This document shows, piece after piece, positions 54,843 through 62,217 of a stretch of 64,000 bases of DNA. The notes under the pieces are model-generated. The model did no database searches and was not told the DNA's origin. It saw nothing but the letters and a program-made list of their open reading frames with translations. Every line of letters begins with the position of its first letter. The stretch's first letter is position 1. Position numbers and translations under genes: made by a program. Origin of the DNA: Veillonella criceti (GTDB taxonomy: Bacteria; Bacillota; Negativicutes; Veillonellales; Veillonellaceae); NCBI RefSeq assembly GCF_900460315.1, contig NZ_UHIO01000001.1, forward strand, positions 272,001 to 336,000, given 5' to 3'.

Positions 54843-55514
54843 GTGCAGTGGCTTGATTTTTTATTTCCACCAACGTGTCCTAGTTGTGGAAGTGAAGTAT
54901 GGCATGATGGAGAATGGTGCAAAACTTGTTTTGAAGAACTATATGATGTACGTTGTATTACTGATTTAGAAGGACAAAATTTAACTTGTGTATATGTAAT
55001 AGGTCATTATGATAAAGGATTAAAAAGCATTCTTCGTGATATAAAATTTCGCGGTCAAAAGGAGCGAGCTGTAGGCGTCGCTCCTTTTTTATATTCTTTT
55101 ATGCTTGCCTTGGCCAAATACAAATTAACACCTGATTATGTTATGCCTATACCAGTTAGTGAAACAAAGCGTAAATTAAGAGGTTATAATCAAGTTGATA
55201 TTCTTTTTAAGCATTGGATACAGCAGGTAGCCTTACATAATCAAACGAGTTGGCAGTGGATAGATGGCTTAGAAAAAACTGATTCTACTCATGCTATGTT
55301 TTCCTTAGGCCGAACTGAACGACATGAAAATATGAAACATGCCTTTACGCCATTATCTAGCATATTAGCAAAGAATATTTTGAAGGATAAAGTAATTTTA
55401 CTTGTAGATGATATATTTACTACAGGTGCTACCTTGGAAGCAGCAGCACAGGTACTTGTGAAGGATTATAAGGTGAAGGAAGTCGTGGGATTAGCTTTAG
55501 CAGGTGGGCATTAA
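54843..55514 (+). CDS. comF: ComF-family phosphoribosyltransferase-like protein
   Basis: ComF-type protein linked to DNA uptake in competent bacteria. 223 residues with an N-terminal zinc finger (Cys12, 15, 26, 29) and a PRTase-like domain with the PRPP loop LLVDDIFTTGATLE near 188-201. It starts with GTG directly after the recD2 stop. No comFA is present in the window; a RecD2-ComF pairing suggests a DNA uptake or repair setting (inference). Confidence 0.9.
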   Translation: MQWLDFLFPPTCPSCGSEVWHDGEWCKTCFEELYDVRCITDLEGQNLTCVYVIGHYDKGLKSILRDIKFRGQKERAVGVAPFLYSFMLALAKYKLTPDYVMPIPVSETKRKLRGYNQVDILFKHWIQQVALHNQTSWQWIDGLEKTDSTHAMFSLGRTERHENMKHAFTPLSSILAKNILKDKVILLVDDIFTTGATLEAAAQVLVKDYKVKEVVGLALAGGH

Positions 55515-55593: not shown

Positions 55594-56196
55594 TTAGCCG
55601 ATAATTTCAATAAAAGCTTTAACTAAATCAGGATCAAAATAGATACCAGATCCACTAAATAATTCCTGTTTAGCCGTTTTTTTGCTTTTAGACCAAGATT
55701 CTGTAGAAGGATTAATAGCGGAGTCGTAATAATCAGCAATACCAATAATACGAGCGCCTAGTGGAATATTACTCCCACAAAGATGTTTTGGAAAACCAGA
55801 ACCATCCCAACGTTCATGGTGATAGCGAATATAAGGAATAATCGGTTGGCAACATGGATAGTTTTCAATCATGTTTGCCCCATTCGCTGGATGTTGACGA
55901 TATTTAGACATTTCTTGACGATTAAAGAAGGGTGCTTTTTTTAAGACTGTAGAAGGCATCATAAGTAATCCTAAGTCATGCAATAATGCACCATGTCTAA
56001 TCTGTTCTATTTCGTTGGCTGGTAGTCCTAGTTTAGCGGCAATACTCACAGAATAATTGGCTACATTGATGGAATGTGTATAAAGCTCGTAGCTTTTCAT
56101 GCGAATCATCTGTAGTAATTGGGCGCTAATGGCTTCTAAGCTATCTTGCTCCAATTCATATAAGCCTGATGGCTGCATTAAAGATAACATAAACAT
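55594..56196 (-). CDS. HD-GYP-like phosphohydrolase domain protein
   Basis: A 200-residue HD-domain protein. It has His73-Asp74 in HGALLHDLGL, a later His in QHPANGANMI, and YHHERWDGSGFP, which is the HD-GYP pattern (HHExxDGxGYP) with Phe in place of Tyr. HD-GYP proteins cleave cyclic di-GMP or related dinucleotides; this chain has no sensor domain and ends with a conserved ADYYDS-like element. Start at 56196 (minus) with GGAAGGA 9 nt upstream; a longer in-frame start exists at 56226. No GGDEF protein is in the window. Confidence 0.85.
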   Translation of the reverse strand: MFMLSLMQPSGLYELEQDSLEAISAQLLQMIRMKSYELYTHSINVANYSVSIAAKLGLPANEIEQIRHGALLHDLGLLMMPSTVLKKAPFFNRQEMSKYRQHPANGANMIENYPCCQPIIPYIRYHHERWDGSGFPKHLCGSNIPLGARIIGIADYYDSAINPSTESWSKSKKTAKQELFSGSGIYFDPDLVKAFIEIIG

Positions 56197-56226
56197 AATA
56201 CTGAGTCCTTCCCTTTGTGTCCCCAT

Positions 56227-56431: not shown

Positions 56432-56460
56432 TAGACAAAGTAAAATTCTTTGCGTATAAT
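56432..56460 (+). promoter_or_regulatory. Promoter of the structured RNA
   Basis: TAGACA (56432-56437), 17-bp spacer, TATAAT (56455-56460). The predicted start, near 56467, coincides with the first base of the closing stem of the RNA. Confidence 0.8.
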
Positions 56461-56466
56461 TTCTTC

Positions 56467-56700
56467 ATACGGGTCTGTGGTTGAAAGTCGAGGCCAGTCG
56501 CAGGCAAAACGATCCACGTAAGTAATGTAACGACATTATGAGCATGGTGCGGCTTAGATGTAAGACCTACCGATAGAATCGAGAGAAGTAGTAGTGGGGA
56601 GCCACAGGCTTAGGAGCGAACCTTCCAGTAGGCGAGTGTGGGGGCAAAGACCAGGTCAGCCGTATATAAAAGACAGCTTTTTAGCTGTCTTTTATTTTTA
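56467..56700 (+). ncRNA. Free-standing structured RNA of about 235 nt (class unproven)
   Basis: No reading frame of note occupies this stretch, yet it has a promoter, a closing helix and its own terminator. ATACGG (56467-56472) pairs with CCGTAT (56660-56665). Inside are hairpins TAATGT-AACG-ACATTA (56523-56538) and CGAT/ATCG (56571-56581). CTGTGG (56475-56480) can pair with CCACAG (56602-56607) while CCTAC (56566-56570) can pair with GTAGG (56628-56632); these two cross, making a pseudoknot. GGCTTAG occurs twice (56551, 56607). The terminator is an 11-bp stem (56668-56693) with loop TTTT. It does not show RNase P, tmRNA or SRP landmarks. The size and complexity are like the raiA-type RNAs of Firmicutes; the raiA/hpf gene is 3.5 kb downstream. 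This is a hypothesis. Confidence 0.7.
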
Positions 56701-56734: not shown

Positions 56735-56763
56735 TTGACTACTTATGCATAGTTATGTATAAT
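56735..56763 (+). promoter_or_regulatory. Promoter of the amino-acid binding protein gene
   Basis: TTGACT (56735-56740), 17-bp spacer containing the palindrome TATGCATA, TATAAT (56758-56763). It lies just after the terminator of the structured RNA, so the gene has its own start. Confidence 0.8.
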
Positions 56764-56845
56764 CATGTCATACCAATTAGAAAAACTCAGATAAAGAGAG
56801 AGTTTGAACTTATTATTATACAATGTAGAGTAGGAGATGGAAGTT

Positions 56846-57667
56846 ATGTTTACACAGAAAATGAAAAAAATTATGCTCACAGGTTTGGCTGTATTAGCCA
56901 TGGGCGCATTAGTGGCTGGTTGTGGTAGTGATACAGCAAGTACACAAGGTGATAATGGGAAGAAAGTTATTAAGGTAGGCACGAATGCAACTTTTGTACC
57001 GTTTGAATTCAAAGATGAATCCTCTCAAGATTTAACGGGCTTTGATATTGATATGGTTAAAGCTATCGCTAAAAAAATGAATGCTGATGTAGAATTCAAA
57101 AATGTAGCATTTGATGCGTTGATTCCAAGTTTGGGAAATAAAGATATTGATATGGCCGCTTCTGGTATGACAATTACTAAAGCAAGAGCCGGTAAAGTAT
57201 TATTTGCGTCGCCTTATTATGAATCCGGTATGGCTGTAGTTGTAAAAGGATCTTCTAGTATTAATAACTTGCAAGACTTAGAAGGAAAAAATATTTCTGT
57301 TCAAATGGGCACAACCGGTGCTGATTTAGCTAGTAAAATTGCTAATGCAACATTAAAACAATTCGACCATAGTAGTGATGCCCTTTTAGAACTTAATAAA
57401 GGAAGTGTAGACGCGGCTGTATTAGATTTACCAGTTGCTCAATATTATGCATCTAAACATCCAAATGATGATGTTAAAGTGATTTCGTATCCAAATACTA
57501 AAGAATACTTTGGCTTTGCTTTTGCTAAAGATAATAAAGACTTACAGGCTGCTGTAAATAAAGCCATTGCTGAAATGAAACAAGATGGTGAATTAAATGC
57601 TATTTATCAAAAATGGTTTAAAACTGATGCACCTGCAGATATGCCAACGGAATGGTCTGGTAAGTAA
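56846..57667 (+). CDS. Polar amino-acid ABC transporter substrate-binding lipoprotein
   Basis: A 273-residue type II solute-binding protein (SBP_bac_3, glutamine/arginine/cystine type). The lipobox is LVAG-Cys26. The mature part has VGTNATFVPFEFKD, GFDIDMVKAIAKKM, DMAASGMTIT and GTTGADLAS, all typical. Start at 56846 gives AGGAG a 9-nt spacing; ATG at 56837 would touch the ribosome binding site. It is separated from its permease and ATPase by a terminator and a new promoter. Specific ligand unknown. Confidence 0.93.
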   Translation: MFTQKMKKIMLTGLAVLAMGALVAGCGSDTASTQGDNGKKVIKVGTNATFVPFEFKDESSQDLTGFDIDMVKAIAKKMNADVEFKNVAFDALIPSLGNKDIDMAASGMTITKARAGKVLFASPYYESGMAVVVKGSSSINNLQDLEGKNISVQMGTTGADLASKIANATLKQFDHSSDALLELNKGSVDAAVLDLPVAQYYASKHPNDDVKVISYPNTKEYFGFAFAKDNKDLQAAVNKAIAEMKQDGELNAIYQKWFKTDAPADMPTEWSGK

Positions 57668-57868: not shown

Positions 57869-57977
57869 TACCTAAGCATAGTAATATAAGTCTATGCGTA
57901 TTTGTACTTGTATAAAGTTATTAATTTTAAGCGTTAAGAAAAATACTTTAAGATGTATACAAAGGAAAGGGTTAGCT

Positions 57978-58634
57978 ATGAGTTTTGATTGGAGTTTAAT
58001 TTGGGACAATTTCCCCATATTATTGCAAGGGGCCGTCATTACAATCCAAATTACAGTAATGGCTGTAGGTTGTGGTTTTTTCATTGGTATGATTGCTGCA
58101 TTAGCGAATTTATCGCGTTTTAAAATTATTCGTTTATTAGTAAAATGTTATGTAGAATTATTCCGTGGTACACCACTGTTGGTACAAATCTTTATGATTT
58201 ACTTTGCTTTGCCTATGGTAATCGGTCAATCCATCAATCCATATGTAGCAGCTGTTACGGCATGTAGTATTAACTCTGGTGCGTATGTATCTGAAATTTT
58301 CCGGGCCGGGATTCAATCTATTGATAAAGGACAAATGGAAGCTGGTCGTTCCTTAGGTTTAACTTGGGCACAGACTATGCGCTATATTGTAATGCCACAA
58401 GCCTTTAAAGCGATTATTCCGCCTCTTGGTAATGAATTTATCGCTATGATGAAAGATACATCGTTGGTATCTGTTATTGGCTTTGAAGAATTAACACGTC
58501 GTGGTCAACTTATTATTGCGCGTACTTATGGTTCTTTTGAGATTTGGACAGCTGTGGCCATTATCTATTTGGTAATGACATTGAGTATTTCACAGTTAGT
58601 GGCCTTCCTTGAAAGGAGATATAATATCAAATGA
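57978..58634 (+). CDS. Polar amino-acid ABC transporter permease
   Basis: A 218-residue HisMQ-type permease with about five membrane segments and the coupling loop [29 protein letters not shown]. Works with the lipoprotein at 56846 and the ATPase at 58631. The start at 57978 follows GGAAAGGG; in-frame upstream codons from 57894 would add a non-conserved leader. Overlaps the ATPase by 4 nt. Confidence 0.93.
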
Positions 58635-59350
58635 TTAAGATGATTGATGTTCATAAAAGTTTTGGCAAAAATGAAGTGCTAAAAGGGATTAATCTTCATG
58701 TAGAACGCGGTGAAGTAGTAGTTATTATTGGTCCTTCTGGTTCTGGTAAAAGTACAGTATTGCGTTGTATGAACTATTTAGAAGAACCTACGTCTGGCGA
58801 TGTTATCGTAGATGGGATGAATTTGAATAATAAAGAAAATATCAATAATGTGCGCGCTGAAGTGGGCATGGTATTTCAACGTTTTAACTTATTCCCTCAT
58901 ATGACGGTATTAGATAATATTACATTAGCCCCACAAAAAATTCGTAAGAGTTCTAAAGGGGAAGCTGAAACGATTGCTCTTGAGTTATTGGATAAAGTAG
59001 GGTTAAAAGACAAGGCTCATTCCTATCCAGAACAGCTGTCAGGTGGTCAACAGCAACGTGTGGCTATTGCCCGTGCTTTAGCTATGAAACCAAAAGTAAT
59101 GCTGTTCGATGAGCCGACATCAGCCCTTGATCCAGAAATGGTTAGTGAAGTATTAGATGTAATGAAAGAGTTAGCCAAGGAAGGTATGACAATGGTTGTC
59201 GTAACTCATGAAATGGGCTTTGCTAAAGAAGTAGGGACTCGAGTTCTTTTTGTGGATGAAGGAAAAATCTTGGAAGAAGGTACACCTGTTGATGTGTTTG
59301 AGCATCCCAAAAATGAACGTACGCAGTTATTCTTATCTAAAATTTTATAA
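58631..59350 (+). CDS. Polar amino-acid ABC transporter ATP-binding protein
   Basis: A 239-residue GlnQ/HisP-type ATPase: Walker [10 protein letters not shown] (33-41), Q-loop [12 protein letters not shown], signature LSGGQQQR, Walker [15 protein letters not shown] and switch VVTHEM. It is the ATP-driven motor of the importer. The translation signal GAAAGGAGA lies in the end of the permease gene. Confidence 0.95.
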
Positions 59351-60060: not shown

Positions 60061-60192
60061 TTTATATTAAAACTTAAAGAAAAATTAAAAAATTTTTTCA
60101 AAAAATAAAGAGGACTTTTGTACTTCCTTGGAGAATTAATATAATATAGAAACAAGTTCGATGTTAGAACTTGGAAGAAAGGATGTTTGCAT

Positions 60193-60723
60193 ATGAAAGT
60201 AACAGTAAGAGGTAAAAATTTAGAAGTAACTGCAGCACTACGTGAATACTTAGAAAAACGTGTGGACAAGCTTGCTCGTTATTTTGATGCACCATTTGAT
60301 GTACAAGCCGTGCTTTCTGTAGAAAAAGAAAATCGAGTAGTTGAATTGACTTGTTTTGTTGAAGGTGTTGTACTTCGTGGTGTAGCATCAAATACGGACA
60401 TGTATGCAGCTATCGATTTAGTAGTAGATAAAATTGTTCGTCAAATTCATAAGTATAAAACTCGTTTAGCTCGTAGATTTAAGAAGGAAGCTGGTTTCAA
60501 ACCAGATGCTTATGTGCCTGAAGTACCAGTTCAAGAAGAAGAAATTAGCGTAGTTCGTCGTAAACATTTTGCGGTACGCCCTATGAATGTTGAAGAAGCT
60601 ATTATGCAGATGAATTTAGTTGGTCATGACTTCTTTATGTTCTATAATGCAGAAACAGAAGTAATGAATGTAGTGTATCGTCGTAAAAACGGTTCCTATG
60701 GTTTGATTGAGCCAGAGGTTTAA
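60193..60723 (+). CDS. hpf: Long-form ribosome hibernation promoting factor (HPF)
   Basis: Long HPF (YvyD/RaiA family), which dimerises 70S ribosomes into inactive 100S particles in stationary phase. 176 residues: N-terminal ribosome-binding domain (MKVTVRGKNLEVTAALREYL, about 1-95), a linker, and the C-terminal dimerisation domain (IMQMNLVGHDFFMFYNAETE, about 125-176). The start ATG 60193 follows AAAGGA; TTG at 60187 is an alternative. A hairpin CAAGTTC/GAACTTG (60153-60173) lies in the leader. Confidence 0.96.
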   Translation: MKVTVRGKNLEVTAALREYLEKRVDKLARYFDAPFDVQAVLSVEKENRVVELTCFVEGVVLRGVASNTDMYAAIDLVVDKIVRQIHKYKTRLARRFKKEAGFKPDAYVPEVPVQEEEISVVRRKHFAVRPMNVEEAIMQMNLVGHDFFMFYNAETEVMNVVYRRKNGSYGLIEPEV

Positions 60724-60930: not shown

Positions 60931-61171
60931 ATGTTTTAAAAAGAAACGCGATGAACAAAATAAGTACAAGCAATGAACTAGACAGAGAAACAAGCCTTGG
61001 CTGGAAGCTTGTTATAGGGTAGTTGCTATGGAATGCCTTTGTGAGCGGGAGTATCGAAGCAGAGTAGATTCTCACGGCGTCCCACCGTTATGGGGTATGA
61101 GTACAACTTAGGTTGTAAACAGAGTGGAACCGCGGGCCACCGCCTCTGTATAGGGGGGCGGTGGCTTTTTT
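60931..61171 (+). promoter_or_regulatory. T-box leader, methionine specifier, upstream of metNIQ
   Basis: A T-box riboswitch that reads uncharged tRNA. The conserved T-box core AGAGTGGAACCGCGGG is at 61121-61136. It is followed by the terminator GCCACCGCC/GGCGGTGGC (61136-61144, 61157-61165) and a T run; the core can instead pair upstream to form the antiterminator. In the Stem I region an ATG at 61028-61030, in the expected 3' side bulge and followed by a purine, is the likely methionine specifier. Uncharged tRNA-Met would then turn on the metNIQ importer, in keeping with the genes that follow. Confidence 0.92.
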
Positions 61172-61194: not shown

Positions 61195-62217
61195 ATGATT
61201 GAATTAAGGCATATTAATAAAGAATTTGTTGTAAAAAAACAACGAGTACAAGCTTTACAAGATGTATCGTTGACAATTAATGATGGCGATATATTTGGTA
61301 TTATTGGCTTTAGTGGAGCTGGCAAATCTACTTTATTGCGTATGGTGAATGCTCTTGAAACACCTACGAATGGGGATGTATTGATTGATGGGGTTAATAT
61401 TAATGCCTTAAGCCATAACGAATTACGGCAAGTACGTAAAGGAATTGGCATGGTATTCCAGTCATTCAATTTGCTCAACTCTAAGACTGTATATGATAAT
61501 ATTGCTATTCCCTTACGGCTTAATAAAGTGGCGGAAACGACTATAGAAAAACGAGTGAAAGAACTATTAGAATTTGTTAATTTGCCAGATAAAGCTAATG
61601 CGTATCCAACTCAACTTTCTGGCGGTCAGAAACAACGGGTAGGCATTGCTAGAGCATTGGCTACTAATCCATCGATTTTACTTTGTGATGAAGCAACTAG
61701 TGCGCTTGATCCAGAAACGACCGAAGCGATTTTGGAGTTGCTTAAACGAATTAATAAGGAATTTAATATTACTGTATTAGTGGTTACTCATGAAATTCAG
61801 GTTATTAAAGAGATTTGTAATCGCGTAGCGGTTATGGAACATGGTCGTGTTGTTGAAATGGGGTCGGTACTTGATGTATTTAGCCATCCTACACAGGCTA
61901 TGACAAAGCGATTTGTTCAAACTGTTATTCCAGAGCGCATTCCTGATAGTATTGTGGCTAATTTACAAAAAGATACACGTAACTATGAAGTCATTAAAGT
62001 TCGTTTTTTAGGTGATACCGTAACAAAGCATGTCATTTATGAAATAAATCGTACCTTACTAGCGGAAACAAATATTATTTTTGCTTCGGTTAATCAATTG
62101 CAAGATTCAGCCCTTGGTATTTTTATTCTACAAGTTGTGGGTGATACTGAGGCGATTCAATCTGTGAAACAATATATTACCGAAAGTGGCTTAGAATGGG
62201 AGGTGGTGAATTTATGA
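61195..62217 (+). CDS. metN: Methionine ABC transporter ATP-binding protein
   Basis: ATPase of the high-affinity methionine importer. 340 residues: Walker A GFSGAGKST (37-45), signature LSGGQKQR, Walker B ILLCDEATSALDPE, and a C-terminal ACT-like NIL domain (about 265-340) that lets cytoplasmic methionine inhibit transport in known MetN proteins. ATG follows AGGAGGTG. It overlaps metI by 4 nt. Confidence 0.96.
   Translation: MIELRHINKEFVVKKQRVQALQDVSLTINDGDIFGIIGFSGAGKSTLLRMVNALETPTNGDVLIDGVNINALSHNELRQVRKGIGMVFQSFNLLNSKTVYDNIAIPLRLNKVAETTIEKRVKELLEFVNLPDKANAYPTQLSGGQKQRVGIARALATNPSILLCDEATSALDPETTEAILELLKRINKEFNITVLVVTHEIQVIKEICNRVAVMEHGRVVEMGSVLDVFSHPTQAMTKRFVQTVIPERIPDSIVANLQKDTRNYEVIKVRFLGDTVTKHVIYEINRTLLAETNIIFASVNQLQDSALGIFILQVVGDTEAIQSVKQYITESGLEWEVVNL

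Follow-up and report, generated by a model that had tools for sequence, protein, structure and literature searches.

A full-length raiA RNA in Veillonella criceti, in a genome without matches to Spo0A, GGDEF, or EAL proteins

We identified a full-length copy of the raiA RNA (ModT) in Veillonella criceti, in a genome (99.88% complete) with no match to Spo0A, to the diguanylate cyclases (GGDEF, no candidates) of cyclic di-GMP (c-di-GMP) signaling, or to EAL proteins. The RNA belongs to a known, widespread class, reported from more than 2,500 species (PMC11706538). It lies on the forward strand of the 64,000-nucleotide stretch analyzed here, which we call the window. We consider it probable, at about 60%, that this is a free-standing gene whose RNA acts in trans and has a housekeeping role in timing the exit from exponential growth. 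The growth-transition part of this reading is drawn by analogy from published work in a few Clostridia.

In a scan of the whole window with Rfam 15, positions 56464–56668 (+) matched RF03072 with 195.2 bits (E = 4.8e-50), just under twice the gathering cut-off of 101.3 bits, and the match covered model positions 1–209 of 209. It was the only RF03072 match in the genome. The first-pass annotation, made from the letters alone, had described a free-standing structured RNA here, guessed at a raiA-type RNA or otherwise a new class, suggested a comparison with Rfam, and named a significant match to a known class as grounds against novelty. Both the structured RNA and the guess are borne out, and a new class is ruled out by the RF03072 match. 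At gathering scores, the window held one further match, a T-box at 60942–61150. 6S RNA, tmRNA, RNase P RNA, and SRP RNA are abundant free-standing bacterial RNAs; none of them matched at gathering scores in the window, and the first-pass annotation had likewise seen no landmarks of the latter three. OLE, GOLLD, and ROOL RNAs, likewise large and structured, had no Rfam match in the window; according to PMC12286853, they were resolved as multimers, whereas the raiA motif was a monomer. Matches to Arrc11, IS128, and a group I intron from a permissive Rfam search were far under their cut-offs and were disregarded.

Three cryo-EM studies of raiA RNA have appeared, including PMC11751092 and PMC12286853. 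We named the helices after PMC11751092 where possible and located the following elements:
56464..56668, +: raiA (ModT) RNA, RF03072, from covariance-model match, alignment, and covariation; the 5′ end is likely near 56467.
56496..56502, +: 5′ strand of pk-1, in the loop of P3, pairing with 56548–56554, from covariation and Rfam pairs.
56548..56554, +: 3′ strand of pk-1, pairing with 56496–56502, from covariation and Rfam pairs.
56566..56570, +: 5′ strand of P4, pairing with 56628–56632; the second helix of the first-pass annotation.
56628..56632, +: 3′ strand of P4, pairing with 56566–56570.

The predicted fold had an energy of −73.4 kcal/mol (z = −2.75), and none of 200 shuffles was as good. 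When the Rfam pairs were mapped onto the window, P1 was formed by 56464–56482 with 56649–56668, with interruptions; its uninterrupted part opens with A56467-U56665, and 56465-56667 and 56466-56666 are non-standard pairs. P3a (56487–56490 with 56510–56513) and P3b (56493–56495 with 56503–56505) were added by reading the sequence with the loop numbers of PMC11751092. P1, P3, P4, and pk-1 are shared with the raiA RNAs of Clostridioides difficile and Clostridium acetobutylicum, as is the full-length match. The Veillonella RNA differs in its A/U-rich outer end of P1 and in the hairpin at 56571–56581, which is two pairs short of the Rfam consensus.

To analyze covariation, we used 59 copies (58 distinct), i.e., the window and 58 others chosen for breadth from 181 RNA-bearing genomes, aligned with MAFFT independently of structure. 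Standard pairs filled 97.3% of cells over the 51 family pairs, compared with 85.2% in shuffles; two-sided changes were found in 29 of the 51 pairs (18.7 in shuffles), and the covariation score was 0.414 (0.177 in shuffles). None of 500 shuffles attained any of the five covariation measures. Kinship alone can beat shuffles without any structure; sliding the pairs along the alignment, a control that preserves relatedness, reached at most 44.3% paired cells and 17 pairs with two-sided changes. The family fold is hence upheld among homologues, a check the first-pass annotation had suggested.

The seven-pair pseudoknot pk-1 of the cryo-EM model, which joins the loop of P3 to the pk loop (PMC11751092), is present in the window copy and had been overlooked in the first pass. 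It was paired in 99.5% of cells, with two-sided changes in two of seven pairs, i.e., C-G to U-A in 14 of 58 sequences and A-U to G-C in 3 of 58. P4 was paired in 100% of cells in the 58 distinct sequences, with one pair changed from G-C to A-U in 4 of 58. For pk-2 (two pairs, pk loop with J4-1c), the candidate columns were near-invariant and several registers fitted equally. The first-pass annotation had called the RNA pseudoknotted because of two crossing helices. One of these is real, but it is P4 and nested in P1. The other, 56475–56480 with 56602–56607, has complementary letters in the window (CTGTGG/CCACAG), but was paired in relatives in 56.4% of cells compared with 56.2% in shuffles, 228 of 500 of which were as high; we regard it as a chance match, and its 5′ strand belongs to P1. 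The RNA is thus pseudoknotted through pk-1, not through the helices originally named.

The surrounding signals and genes are:
54843..55514, +: comFC, upstream gene (phosphoribosyltransferase and zinc ribbon), by domain match.
55594..56226, −: stand-alone HD-GYP-type protein of 210 amino acids, divergent neighbor (PF13487, E = 3.5e-32).
56432..56460, +: sigma-70-type promoter sequence of the RNA, TAGACA-17 nt-TATAAT, 11 of 12 matches, kept in relatives.
56666..56695, +: intrinsic terminator of the RNA, by pattern search; it overlaps the last P1 bases.
56735..56763, +: promoter-like site of the next gene, TTGACT-17-TATAAT, 11 of 12 matches.
56837..57667, +: substrate-binding protein (SBP) of an amino-acid ABC transporter (PF00497, E = 2.2e-44).
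57894..58634 and 58631..59350, +: permease and ATPase following the SBP.
60187..60723, +: hpf/raiA gene for the ribosome hibernation factor, source of the RNA family name (PF02482, PF16321).

The RNA would be read from its own promoter and ended by its own terminator. Four promoter-like sites were found in a 621-base region where shuffles gave 2.7, so that the TAGACA-17-TATAAT match taken alone is weak. Among the copies inspected from the window's family (f1, presumably Veillonellaceae; f-codes denote families, G-codes genomes, and L-codes loci), 11 of 12 promoter positions matched in 14 of 14, with TAGACA in 12 and GTGACA in two as the −35 element and a spacer of 17 in 13 and of 18 in one. 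Transcription starting 7 nt past the −10 element, near A56467, would begin on the first uninterrupted pair of P1, in agreement with the first-pass proposal that the start falls on the first base of a closing stem. Shuffles gave 0.1 intrinsic terminators where one was found, and by eye all 14 f1 copies have a hairpin and T-run after the RNA, with letters quite different between genera. In the 55 bases after the RNA, two f3 copies and some f18 copies showed no clear hairpin with a T-run. For the long isoform of C. difficile, a terminator directly behind the RNA has likewise been discussed (PMC11706538). The 17-bp promoter spacing, the terminator, and the separate promoter before the next gene had all been noted in the first pass, and the corresponding sequences were found. 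Our literature search surfaced nothing on point on small-RNA or transcript data from Veillonella.

The gene order in the window is recD2, comFC, the divergent HD-GYP-type gene, the RNA, the SBP-permease-ATPase genes, cspA, and hpf; the f1 relatives agree with it over whatever part their stretches cover. The Hpf protein is 99% identical to that of Veillonella sp. R32 and 97–98% to those of V. seminalis, V. ratti, and V. intestinalis, so that by this one protein the window would belong to that group of the genus. A comFC gene upstream (the commonest upstream neighbor of raiA RNA, at 74%; PMC11706538) and an hpf/raiA gene nearby, usual but not required for the class, are shared with C. difficile and C. 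acetobutylicum. Unlike in these species, an HD-GYP-type gene stands between comFC and the RNA, and the host has no Spo0A, GGDEF, or EAL match.

We then compared the distribution of the RNA with that of Spo0A and GGDEF in 350 genomes of the class Negativicutes, drawn from a larger group. The RNA was found in 181 (177 over the cut-off) under filters stricter than in the window, and some of the RNA-less genomes are incomplete assemblies. Spo0A was found in 56 and GGDEF in 266. RNA and GGDEF occurred together in 103 genomes, the RNA without GGDEF in 78, GGDEF without the RNA in 163, and neither in six; for Spo0A the corresponding numbers were 51, 130, five, and 164. A Spo0A match was likewise missing from every one of the 78 genomes with the RNA but no GGDEF (78 of 181 without both); they comprise 27 of the 28 f1 genomes, 22 of the 32 genomes that carry the RNA elsewhere in the order, and a further 29. 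The RNA was present in 28 of 28 f1 genomes; Spo0A had no match in any of them and GGDEF none in 27, the exception being G144, of the same genus, with one weak GGDEF match (9.2e-11).

Family f14 (158 tallied genomes and G105) showed the opposite, with the RNA in 0 of 159 genomes and GGDEF in 157 of 159. The other 10 RNA-less genomes are from f4, f8, f11, f16, f18, f22, f28, and f35. A laxer search for diverged copies in 34 f14 genomes, G013, G019, and G247 gave just two matches, of 15.6 and 14.2 bits, at a threshold at which four of 14 control genomes also matched.

That the RNA occurs in non-spore-formers was already known; the f1 and f14 patterns are added here. From the absence of Spo0A, GGDEF, and EAL matches in the window's genome and of Spo0A and GGDEF in 78 of the 181 RNA-bearing genomes, we argue that c-di-GMP and sporulation are not the universal route of raiA RNA, in agreement with a more basic role. 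The literature search surfaced nothing on point on Veillonella with GGDEF, and no prior statement comparing GGDEF with raiA RNA was found in print, in a search largely blind to subscription papers.

Published work on C. difficile describes the RNA as abundant and stable in exponential growth, and its deletion as delaying entry into stationary phase and reducing sporulation via c-di-GMP made by DccA (PMC11706538). Reported phenotypes cover sporulation, aggregation, toxin production, and c-di-GMP level, and the biochemical function is described as unsolved. As many non-spore-formers carry ModT, the authors of PMC11706538 infer a more basic process, leaving the molecular function open. We favor a core task that would be a housekeeping step timing the exit from exponential growth, of which the sporulation and c-di-GMP effects in clostridia would be downstream or lineage-specific outputs. 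Since neither Spo0A nor GGDEF is detectable in the window's genome, the task cannot depend there on Spo0A or on c-di-GMP made by GGDEF enzymes. The RNA would act in trans as a compact, pseudoknotted molecule, RNP-like or ribozyme-like, rather than as a riboswitch for the gene that follows it. It has outlived its neighbors, which favors a trans-acting housekeeping role. Since f1 keeps the RNA without Spo0A and, in 27 of 28 genomes, without GGDEF, Veillonella offers a clean background for the primary function, and the HD-GYP neighbor is a concrete candidate for a part in it.

The latter leads to an alternative that we consider unlikely, although it survives best, i.e., that the RNA and the stand-alone HD-GYP orthologue work in one pathway with no need of c-di-GMP. 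In a genome that matches neither GGDEF nor EAL, the protein at 55594–56226 is the sole one of HD-GYP type and gives the single HD_5 match. Each of the 28 f1 genomes has exactly one such match; the gene adjoins the RNA in 27, and in G172 the two are on separate contigs. Adjacency was also found in 19 of 19 testable f18 loci (in the twentieth, L100, the sequence starts 3 nt ahead of the RNA) and in both f3 loci, but in none of three f2 and seven f4 loci examined. Among the 51 RNA-bearing genomes outside f1 without GGDEF and Spo0A, 48 have HD_5, 47 of them exactly one, which in G003 is a 38.4-bit fragment. More than one was found in G094, and none in G190, G225, and G229.

The orthologues form one family of about 200 residues, in most of which H, HD, H, and HHE..DG.G(Y/F)P are kept. 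A later AD, whose aspartate we take to be a metal site, reads AN or CN in many proteins of f18 and is altered in L169 and in some f4 members. In L157, HK replaces HD, and the L171 protein is truncated. Activity is hence not certain in all members. With a profile that separated orthologues (249–334 bits) from other HD-GYP proteins (<180 bits) in 79 hand-chosen genomes, we found the orthologue in 25 of 28 RNA-bearing genomes and in three of 51 RNA-less ones, including 0 of 41 from f14. The three (G061, G177, G213) are fragmented assemblies, and other members of their families have the RNA.

Against a shared pathway, the RNA is kept in G004 (f7), G017 (f20), and G078 (f30), which lack the orthologue, and in G190, which has no HD_5 match. 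In an RpoB tree (one domain, quick method, 10 of 53 inner branches left open), f7 and f20 stand beside f14, which has neither, so that on this branch loss of the orthologue probably preceded loss of the RNA. An independent-pairs test on well-supported branches gave four pairs, on average 2.5 changing the same way, none the opposite way, and 1.5 without difference (median p = 0.25). Here, the broken HD-GYP of G003 was scored as absent, G187, G006, G014, and G016 were left unscored for HD-GYP, and G246, G008, G061, and G213, without an RpoB match, were outside the tree. With the three exceptions and so few pairs, strict co-inheritance is not established.

Gene order suggests another origin of the adjacency. 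comFC adjoins the orthologue in 22 of 28 loci scanned (three of the 28 from f18). In families with larger genomes the orthologue lay on the RNA's contig, some 11–175 kb away in about 15 cases compared by eye, and the RNA often follows fliD-fliS (FliD in L130, L143, L144, and L151; FliS in L130); elsewhere the gene before it is for a glycosyltransferase, an oxidoreductase, or an unassigned product, and in L140 for another HD_5 protein. We took families as flagellated or sporulating from fliD/fliS and Spo0A. This arrangement suggests an ancestral recD2-comFC-HD order and that Veillonella lost a flagellar island which had separated the RNA from it; adjacency would then be a consequence of genome reduction and not by itself evidence of shared function. 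The coupling is thus a suggestive lead and not established, and our literature search surfaced nothing on point on HD-GYP with raiA. A broader form, in which an ancient growth-transition module independent of sporulation and c-di-GMP has the HD-GYP orthologue as partner (sensor, ligand source, or target), appears to us equally doubtful. If it were true, Veillonella would carry a stripped-down module, the RNA directly beside HD-GYP, free of flagellar genes in between, in a genome that matches none of Spo0A, GGDEF, and EAL.

Less likely still is that the RNA, as a riboswitch or leader, controls the downstream amino-acid ABC transporter in cis, although Rfam types RF03072 as 'Cis-reg; riboswitch' and, in 27 of 40 loci, an SBP match lies downstream on the same strand as the RNA. 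Hpf is placed in the same way in 20 of 40, so that the first-pass use of the hpf gene as a hint of raiA RNA was sound. By sequence patterns, the window has no riboswitch expression platform joined to the next gene; the RNA has its own terminator, and the SBP gene behind it has a promoter-like site of its own. Moreover, the gene directly after the RNA differs by lineage (zinc-finger protein, permease, cspA, or SBP), and complementation in trans has been published for C. difficile (PMC11706538).

In other families a small protein of one kind starts 33–66 nt after the RNA in 20 of 22 testable loci (23 examined, L141 being cut), mostly behind the same ribosome-binding site; L144 and L148 have a permease and cspA instead. 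Two of these zinc-finger (treble-clef) proteins were checked and correspond to PF13451/PF23477. Four copies shown from such families run on into the ribosome-binding site of the gene, and in L130, L139, L145, L151, and others no obvious terminator stands between RNA and gene. Because of this leader-like placement and the Rfam type, the RNA may have a cis role there. As a general rule, coupling to the zinc-finger gene is rejected, since PF13451 had no match in 28 of 28 f1 genomes, which have the RNA, and occurs in roughly 150 of the 159 f14 genomes, which do not (an approximate figure, as a hand tally of positive rows was two above the total of 268). No paper on a zinc ribbon with raiA surfaced in our literature search.

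That the RNA works through c-di-GMP in Veillonella, as in C. difficile, is very improbable. The loss of the RNA raises c-di-GMP through DccA in that species (PMC11706538), and an HD-GYP-type protein adjoins the RNA here, but the window's genome has no GGDEF or EAL match, GGDEF was found in one of 28 f1 genomes, and f14 combines near-universal GGDEF with the absence of the RNA. A functionless relic, for which the flagellar and zinc-finger neighbors missing in Veillonella might speak, is the least credible reading given the full-length consensus match, the intact pseudoknot, the kept promoter, and the presence of the RNA throughout f1.

Two further observations were made. The T-box leader (RF00230, 102.6 bits) at 60942–61150 immediately precedes an ATP-binding ABC transporter gene (61195–62217), presumably of the MetN type. 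The PF00562 match of RpoB spans 1599–1665 bases in f1 (L248, L249, L250, L252, L255) compared with about 1250–1335 mostly elsewhere, pointing to a probable insertion in the f1 protein.
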